Shown here one piece after another: positions 13,309-14,410 of a stretch of DNA of 64,000 bases (position 1 is the stretch's first letter; every line of letters starts with the position of its first letter). The DNA lies in assembly GCF_019880555.1 (NCBI RefSeq), contig NZ_JAINVU010000002.1, positions 558,001 to 622,000 of the forward strand, written 5' to 3'. A program made the position numbers and the translations under genes. Below the pieces are notes generated by a model that was not told the origin of the DNA, made no database searches, and saw only the letters and a program-made list of their open reading frames with translations. The stretch comes from Hephaestia mangrovi. Its GTDB lineage: Bacteria; Pseudomonadota; Alphaproteobacteria; Sphingomonadales; Sphingomonadaceae.

Positions 13309-13372
13309 CGACTTCTCCGCGATCGGTAATAATCAGAGTCCATTACACTTAGGCCTTACAACATAACAGAAA

Positions 13373-13398
13373 GAGCGCCCGGATTGCTCCGGGCGCTC
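13373..13398 (-). terminator. Rho-independent terminator of hsp20
   Basis: A perfect 11-bp stem (GAGCGCCCGGA / TCCGGGCGCTC) closed by a GCAA tetraloop on the minus strand, followed by TTTCTGTT. It lies 25 bases after the hsp20 stop codon and reads in the same direction. This is the clearest terminator in the window. Confidence 0.9.
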
Positions 13399-13422
13399 CA
13401 CTTTATCAACAGGCGCTCTACG

Positions 13423-13893
13423 TTACGCGGCGGCCTTGTCCTCGTGGCTCTCTTCGATCGCCTGCGGGCCGGAGCCGGTCTTGATCGCGATCGTCTTGGG
13501 CTTCATCGCCTCGGGGATCTCGCGGACCAGATCGACGGTCAGCAAGCCATCGGCCAGCCGTGCATCGTCGACCCGCACGAAATCGGCGAGTTCGAAGCGG
13601 CGCTCGAAGCTGCGATTGGCGATGCCGACGTGCAGGAAATCGCCATCCTGGGTATCGTCGCCGCGCTTACCCTGGACGAGCAGCAGGTTCTGCTGCGCGG
13701 TGATCTCGATCTCGTCGCGGCTGAAACCGGCGACGGCGATCGTGATGCGGTAGCGATCCTCGGACAGGCGCTGCAGGTTGAAGGGTGGATAATTGTCGCT
13801 GGACGCGGCGCGGGCGCTGTTTTCGAGCAGGTCGAACAGCCGGTCGAAGCCGATCGTCGAGCGGCGATAGGGGGTCAAATCAAACTGACGCAT
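13423..13893 (-). CDS. hsp20: Small heat-shock protein, Hsp20/IbpA type
   Basis: An alpha-crystallin-domain chaperone of 156 residues that holds unfolding proteins for later refolding. The N-terminus has FDLTPYRRSTIGFDRLF, as in IbpA; the crystallin domain covers about residues 30-130, with YRITIAVAGFSRDE, FERRFELAD and LADGLLTVDL; the end is an IxI-like KPKTIAI segment and an acidic tail. The frame offers an earlier ATG, but the one at 13893 sits eight bases after GGAGG, so it is preferred. It has its own sigma-32 type promoter and terminator, so it is a single-gene heat-shock unit. Confidence 0.95.
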   Translation of the reverse strand: MRQFDLTPYRRSTIGFDRLFDLLENSARAASSDNYPPFNLQRLSEDRYRITIAVAGFSRDEIEITAQQNLLLVQGKRGDDTQDGDFLHVGIANRSFERRFELADFVRVDDARLADGLLTVDLVREIPEAMKPKTIAIKTGSGPQAIEESHEDKAAA

Positions 13894-13901
13894 GTCAAAG
13901 T

Positions 13902-13927
13902 CCTCCAATGAGCGAGTTCAACAAAGG
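13902..13927 (-). promoter_or_regulatory. Possible Shine-Dalgarno-hiding hairpin in the hsp20 leader
   Basis: In the hsp20 5' UTR, CCUUU can pair with all five bases of the Shine-Dalgarno GGAGG (two of the pairs are G-U) across a 16-base loop; other stems lie upstream in the roughly 90-base leader. This layout resembles ROSE-type RNA thermometers, which control hsp20 genes in several alphaproteobacteria. The pairing is weak, as expected of a thermometer, but also close to chance. Confidence 0.35.
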
Positions 13928-13993
13928 TCGGCGCCCGCTCTTGCGCGACGCCGGCGATGTGCGTGGCCCGATTGTGGCACCACGCGAGATTGA

Positions 13994-14021
13994 AAATGGG
14001 AACCCGTCGCCGGAGTTCAAG
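13994..14021 (-). promoter_or_regulatory. Sigma-32 (RpoH) type promoter of hsp20
   Basis: The minus strand reads CTTGAA, 14 bases, then TCCCATTT. This matches the RpoH consensus (CTTGAA, then CCCCATnT) at all but one defined position with suitable spacing. It lies about 100 bases upstream of the hsp20 ATG, which leaves a leader long enough for structured control. A heat-shock gene is exactly where such a promoter is expected. Confidence 0.8.
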
Positions 14022-14027
14022 GGGCCG

Positions 14028-14410
14028 GATCGGCCATAACGCGGGATGATCGTCGATGCCGCCGCCGCCGTATCGAGCTCGAAAAGCAAACGCCCGGGCC
14101 GTTTGAACGACCCGGGCGCCTGCGTGACGATTGCTCGTCAGCCCCCTTGTCTCGTTACCGCTACGACGCTGCATCCGTTGCTGGACTGCGGAGCGGGAAC
14201 TCCCCGAACCCGGCTTTTTGCCTGAGCTTCAGTAAGACCGAACGCTATTGAAGGGCGGGGCTTTTGTCATCGTAAATCCCGGGTTCATCCGCCGATTGCT
14301 CGAATCCTGTGGTGATTCCGCAACAGGGGTGCGTCGACGTTGCCAGCCCGTCGGCGCTCCCCTAGAGGATCGATCATCGTAACTGACCGGGGGCAGATAC
14401 CGCCATCGCC
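14028..14410. other. Gene-free region between hsp20 and lolC
   Basis: About 380 bases without a supportable protein gene. It holds the minus-strand terminator at 14091-14118 and, upstream of it on that strand, a stretch rich in short stems (around GGGAACTCCC at about 14198 and CCGTTGCTGG at about 14176). A small RNA ending at that terminator is possible, but I do not recognise it as 6S, SRP, tmRNA or RNase P RNA. The right end must hold the lolC promoter, which I could not pick out. Confidence 0.5.
14091..14118 (-). terminator. Rho-independent terminator upstream of hsp20
   Basis: On the minus strand GCCCGGGTCG pairs with CGGCCCGGGC (one G-U pair) around a short loop, and the next bases are TTTGCTTTT. 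On the plus strand the G-U becomes an A-C mismatch, so the minus strand is the likely functional one. It lies upstream of the hsp20 promoter, so it should end some other minus-strand transcript. Confidence 0.7.

Follow-up and report, generated by a model that had tools for sequence, protein, structure and literature searches.

How might the small heat shock gene hsp20 of Hephaestia mangrovi be controlled by heat, and at how many levels? The gene and its leader lie on the minus strand of the window, i.e., the whole stretch of 64,000 nucleotides analysed here, and a preliminary description of this DNA proposed two layers: transcription by sigma-32 (RpoH) and translation by a leader of the ROSE type, in which a CCUUU would cover the Shine-Dalgarno sequence. 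Comparison with relatives backs the promoter and the ROSE-type leader, whereas CCUUU proved to be the wrong partner. As judged from sequence, a sigma-32 promoter and a putative ROSE-type leader ahead of hsp20 are well supported, and the gene is very probably heat-controlled twice, through an RpoH promoter and through melting of the ROSE-like leader. The arrangement is an ordinary one that is conserved in relatives, and it supports the notion that Sphingomonas, a large genus of environmental bacteria, possesses a heat switch with two layers.

hsp20 and its sigma-32-type promoter

The hsp20 gene (13423-13893, minus strand) codes for an IbpA-like small heat shock protein of 156 amino acids (Pfam PF00011, E 1.2e-18), which is 52.9% identical to IbpA of Escherichia coli. 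Its start is the ATG at 13893, as judged against 80 relatives and from the Shine-Dalgarno sequence GGAGGA (13901-13906, minus strand) just upstream; the TTG at 13908, given as the start in the list of open reading frames, was dropped in favour of this ATG. The relatives, taken from a species collection, belong mainly to Sphingomonas and reach up to 78% identity. Two of the records (L035 and L054) are titled Arthrobacter and Microvirga, respectively, and carry a Sphingomonas-type hsp20 plus leader; the titles may be wrong. Downstream of the gene, a pattern scan picked up a terminator-like hairpin (13372-13399, minus strand), a weak signal given one such hairpin seen versus 1.5 expected in shuffled sequences. 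The genome also harbours a second hsp20 (L001, G000:C22:52958-53263), which begins with GTG.

Upstream of the gene, an exact -35 element of the sigma-32 type, CTTGAA (14016-14021, minus strand), is followed after 14 bp by the -10 element TCCCATTT (13994-14001, minus strand), which agrees with CCCCATTT at seven of eight positions and lies at -108 to -101 relative to the ATG. The preliminary description had claimed just such a pair, with this spacing and some 100 bases ahead of hsp20, and the elements are present as described. Scored as CTTGAA plus CCCCATNT, the site reaches 12 of 13, a value attained by none of 400 shuffled leaders (11 was reached by two of 400); against the consensus quoted in PMC3669281, CTTGAA-N14-TCCCATTT scores 11 of 13. 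The site thus shows the features of a sigma-32 promoter, CTTGAA followed at 13-18 bp by a CNCCATAT-like octamer. A sigma-70 scan gave no site. With one mismatch allowed, the looser promoter pattern matches three times in the window compared to a mean of 4.8 in shuffles, which is not above chance, and the case for the promoter consequently rests on position and conservation.

The relatives were chosen by protein similarity only, and therefore their upstream DNA provides an independent test of the promoter. When scored with CTTGAA plus CNCCATAT at a spacing of 14, 63 of 79 relatives' leaders reach at least 11, as opposed to three of 395 stretches taken from elsewhere in these loci (seven of 395 reach at least 10), and in 76 of the 79 the top score falls on an exact CTTGAA located at -115 to -140. 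Among 48 distinct leaders from further genomes with ROSE hits, the best site contains CTTG at -100 to -150 in 38, and in 10 it does not.

The genome encodes RpoH itself (TIGR02392, 366.5 bits, cut-off 323.1). Throughout its 3.79 Mb, CTTGAA-N16-CCANNT occurs six times, versus once for the backwards control; one match scores 13/13, two score 12/13 (hsp20 and C18:242291-242318) and three score 10/13. The perfect site (G000:C11:674807-674834, seen in L115 and L120) begins 37 nt upstream of the start codon of a frame of 316 amino acids, which by eye we take to be rluD, and which is followed by rpoH. This neighbourhood is fitting company for an RpoH promoter and suggests possible feedback by RpoH on the operon that encodes it. 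The site at C18:242291-242318 (L118) equals that of hsp20 in score, and no heat-shock gene was recognised there.

RpoH (sigma-32) would thus transcribe hsp20 from the promoter at 14021-13994. The transcription start probably falls at 13986-13988 (minus strand), around 13987, which is 6-8 nt past the -10 element and immediately upstream of the first leader hairpin. In this manner promoter and leader fit each other, since the 5' end of the hsp20 mRNA would coincide almost exactly with the beginning of a three-hairpin ROSE-like leader. Use of the promoter by RpoH is itself deduced from these features.

Detection and distribution of the ROSE-like leader

ROSE-like thermometers (Rfam RF00435) reside in the 5' leaders of small heat shock genes, comprise several hairpins and place the motif U(U/C)GCU opposite the Shine-Dalgarno sequence in the last of them, as does the window leader. 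Named cases include ROSE1 of Bradyrhizobium hspA, a Caulobacter element and the ibpA leaders of E. coli and Pseudomonas, and U(U/C)GCU is stated to be the hallmark of the class (PMC3669281, as far as its treatment of these cases goes). The putative element ahead of hsp20 spans 13887-13984 on the minus strand, i.e., the 5' leader of the mRNA and the first codons. The Rfam ROSE model aligns to it end to end (13984-13887) with 36.4 bits and an E value of 6e-4 for the 451-base leader region, and genome-wide the leader is the single match at E ≤ 10 (E 0.0012). The score lies below the gathering score of 45, and therefore the leader is filed as ROSE-like rather than as a formal RF00435 match. A search of the window at gathering scores returned two tRNAs only, so that finding the ROSE match required a permissive search. 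The second hsp20 of the genome lacks a ROSE match at E ≤ 10 in the genome-wide search with the Rfam model.

A model built from the relatives themselves recognises the leader far better. The leave-one-out version, made from 43 relatives with the window excluded, scores 83.8 bits (E 5.3e-18, 13992-13886), the next best match in the window having 15.2. As to the two models called R1 and R2, R1 includes the window and R2 does not, and R1's 84.7 bits for the window were set aside for this reason. Across the order, 68 of 196 genomes yield matches to the leave-one-out model at E ≤ 0.01, the own genome counted. In 199 genomes of the family, searched with stricter filters at which weak matches are lost, the Rfam model matches 73 at E ≤ 0.1 (126 without match) and exceeds gathering in 22, while R1 matches 90 and leaves 109 without a match. 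Moreover, a search of 20 relatives from the 80 loci with the Rfam model reported three at E ≤ 1, all of them under gathering; for this lineage, the public model makes too few calls.

The element keeps close company with its gene. An hsp20 frame lies beside the match in all 68 ROSE-hit loci of relatives that were inspected, these being the best-scoring ones (30 by Rfam, 29 by R1 and 9 by R2, partly the same sites), and in the 59 loci measured the hsp20 start is found between -13 and +2 nt from the end of the match. Eight weak R1 matches elsewhere in the own genome (E 0.09 to 9.9) are taken as chance and were discarded as ROSE elements, as hsp20 was absent at all seven inspected. Some relatives contain several ROSE matches per genome (five in G057, four in G102 and three in G017). 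The strongest Rfam matches mostly precede an hsp20 that fits the window type less well (E of about 1e-60 versus 1e-75 and better).

Searches of open-licence papers for Sphingomonas, Sphingomonadales, sphingomonads or Novosphingobium turned up no account of a naturally occurring ROSE element in this group, and a 2005 survey with more than 40 candidates may list one. An experimental counterpart is ibpA of Pseudomonas putida, for which control by sigma-32 and ROSE has been established; there, too, a sigma-32 promoter is directly followed by a ROSE-like element and control has two layers (PMC3669281). The P. putida leader folds into two hairpins over 62 nt, whereas the window leader has three and measures about 94 nt by its presumed start.

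Hairpins of the leader and the partner of the Shine-Dalgarno sequence

The folding of the leader was assessed in 44 leaders, retained out of 80 after removal of those identical to a leader already kept at over 85 of 103 positions; L014 has too little upstream DNA and was left out of the leader sets. The sequences were aligned without structure, and the Rfam structure as placed on the window was then counted. Overall, 79.3% of cells are paired, compared to 72.2% in shuffled alignments and 33-44% when the structure is slid along the alignment, a comparison in which the structure is favoured over its slid versions by being derived from the window. Both sides have changed in 25 of 34 pairs versus 15.0 in shuffles, and such cells number 113 versus 38.5, counts that kinship among the sequences inflates.

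The three hairpins contribute unequally. Hairpin I (13961-13985, minus strand) is strong: all eight counted pairs have changed on both sides, 98.0% of cells are paired, and a bulged G is present in 41 of the 44 leaders; the Rfam ROSE consensus likewise carries a bulged base in hairpin I. Hairpin II (13928-13954, minus strand) is good, with eight of ten pairs changed on both sides and 83.6% of cells paired. Hairpin III (13889-13927, minus strand), which contains the Shine-Dalgarno sequence and is presumed to be the thermosensing one, is conserved in its core only. The core pairs (columns 117-122 with 134-138) are kept in 37-44 of the 44 leaders, and their changes are mostly one-sided, as expected since one strand is the Shine-Dalgarno sequence itself. 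In the outer stem (columns 106-110), 131 of 211 cells are unpaired, and thus the outer stem of the last hairpin, in addition to the score, sets this lineage apart from RF00435, being largely not retained. Given free choice on the alignment, RNAalifold predicted hairpin I alone and did not call II and III. With these gradations the leader displays three of the two to four hairpins typical of the class.

Within hairpin III, the conserved partner of the Shine-Dalgarno sequence is the ROSE motif UCGCU (13911-13915, minus strand), a representative of U(U/C)GCU, whose predicted anti-Shine-Dalgarno pairing is imperfect and conserved. T[CT]GCT is found in 78 of 80 leaders, the window counted, and GCU in all 44 of the alignment. 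According to folding of the 44 leaders, the partner lies at most 16 nt upstream rather than farther away in 42, and in 33 shuffling of the upstream sequence leaves the Shine-Dalgarno sequence more exposed, a modest difference. The CCUUU (13923-13927, minus strand) named in the preliminary description can indeed pair with GGAGG by means of two G-U pairs and offers a possible alternative fold; it would mask the ribosome binding site in a way akin to a fourU thermometer, the likeness to ROSE then being incidental. This fold is the one of minimum energy for the fragment from -94 to +15 at all temperatures tried, and some other fragment ends also favour it, yet its predicted occupancy ranges from 3 to 69% (22 to 95% for UCGCU) with fragment ends and temperature. 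CCTTT occurs in three of 80 leaders, and 50.9% of cells are paired against a shuffled mean of 48.0%, with 32 of 500 shuffles as high, in a gappy part of the alignment. FourU thermometers also employ a U-rich partner (PMC4166951, in its account of that class), whereas the window has no four uridines on the AGGA of the Shine-Dalgarno sequence, merely CCUUU. As a conserved switch the CCUUU pairing is ruled out by its rarity and near-shuffle level, and masking by CCUUU in the window itself appears very improbable.

With UCGCU as partner, the leader would work as follows. At growth temperature, UCGCU would pair with GGAGGA in hairpin III and block ribosome binding; upon heat, the imperfect hairpin would loosen and translation could begin, while hairpins I and II probably serve as a stable folding scaffold. 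Folding at 25 and 42 °C had been recommended in the preliminary description. The Shine-Dalgarno sequence is mostly paired at 25 °C whichever partner is chosen, but the predicted opening is small: its mean unpaired probability in the window, over the fragment ends tried, goes from 0.16-0.25 at 25 °C to 0.20-0.38 at 42 °C, and across the 44 leaders the value changes from 0.247 at 25 °C to 0.281 at 45 °C, a rise of 0.033. Nearest-neighbour models do not include non-canonical pairs and may therefore miss thermal opening, although they lend it no support either. They predict almost no opening, and temperature folding was dropped as uninformative on melting.

The small predicted opening would also suit a simpler view, according to which transcriptional heat control alone matters and the leader folds merely as a by-product of being rich in G+C. 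This view can further draw on Sphingomonas melonis TY, where heat shock raises the hsp17 mRNA 1,857-fold and the protein 11-fold (PMC10434288), the change in mRNA far exceeding that in protein. Hsp17 is reported to be 50.00% identical to IbpA and to have a mass of 17.2 kDa (PMC10434288); the S. melonis relative in our set (L005) is 50.7% identical to IbpA at 17.4 kDa, and we infer that Hsp17 is the orthologue of the window hsp20. A word search of the text of PMC10434288 found RNA thermometer, ROSE and RpoH in the reference list only. The compensatory changes in the leader and its link to hsp20 argue against a by-product, and control by transcription alone is scarcely credible next to the two-layer arrangement of RpoH promoter and ROSE-like leader.

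Possible self-repression by Hsp20 and the neighbouring sequence

A third layer may be added by the protein itself. E. coli IbpA binds its own leader and represses its own translation, which essentially requires R93 and needs an aromatic residue at position 34; from residue conservation, self-suppression has been suggested for alphaproteobacteria as well (PMC10474464, in the passages drawn on here). Y34 and R93 of IbpA correspond to Y35 and R94 in the window Hsp20, and arginines occupy the places of residues 97 and 98, the latter replacing K98. All 80 relatives have Y, R, R and R at IbpA positions 34, 93, 97 and 98. In another set of 48 ROSE-bearing proteins, 42 keep Y34, 44 keep R93 and all 48 keep R97, and 43 have R at 98.

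One might accordingly argue that the leader is conserved mainly as a site of Hsp20 self-repression, from which heat would draw the chaperone off to unfolded proteins. The constancy of Y34, R93 and R97 in the window protein and all 80 relatives speaks for this explanation, as do the conserved sequence of hairpin I with its bulged G and the suggestion already made for alphaproteobacteria. The ROSE-less second Hsp20 (L001) also fits in that it has G in place of both Y34 and R93, yet it retains R at 97 and 98, the protein being distant and its alignment uncertain in the first part. The two kinds of small heat shock protein differ at many residues, and the residue pattern is thus consistent with self-repression without proving it. 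Moreover, R93 is absent in four and Y34 in six of the 48 further ROSE-bearing proteins, and IbpA self-suppression is demonstrated in gammaproteobacteria only, in the parts of PMC10474464 considered. Self-repression is also compatible with a thermometer and does not exclude one. As the main reason for conservation of the leader it seems unlikely.

A combination of the mechanisms can be entertained as a tentative extension of the two-layer reading, though we would not bet on it: RpoH-dependent transcription and ROSE melting might be joined by Hsp20 oligomers that bind the covarying bulged-G hairpin I. If true, the three-layer reading would mean feedback repression beyond gammaproteobacteria, and the locus lends itself to a simple check on whether self-repression of the IbpA type reaches alphaproteobacteria.

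The sequence farther upstream contains two additional elements. A G+C-rich hairpin at 14086-14123, located 5' of the hsp20 promoter, comprises 17 predicted pairs (some of them G-U) and a loop of 4 nt, followed by TTTT on the minus strand; it looks like a terminator, yet the terminator pattern scan did not flag it. Adjacent to it, a non-coding stretch between hsp20 and a LolC-type gene (14411) is conserved at 14125-14230, and part of the region 14125-14410 is matched in 28 of 61 genomes of the genus, the own genome counted. Rfam gave nothing of note for this conserved stretch upstream of hsp20 (best E 2.1). In all five loci read it adjoins the LolC-type gene, and two of these (L173 and L174) have no hsp20 within the 3.1 kb examined; the stretch may therefore belong to the LolC-type gene or to an unlisted small RNA.
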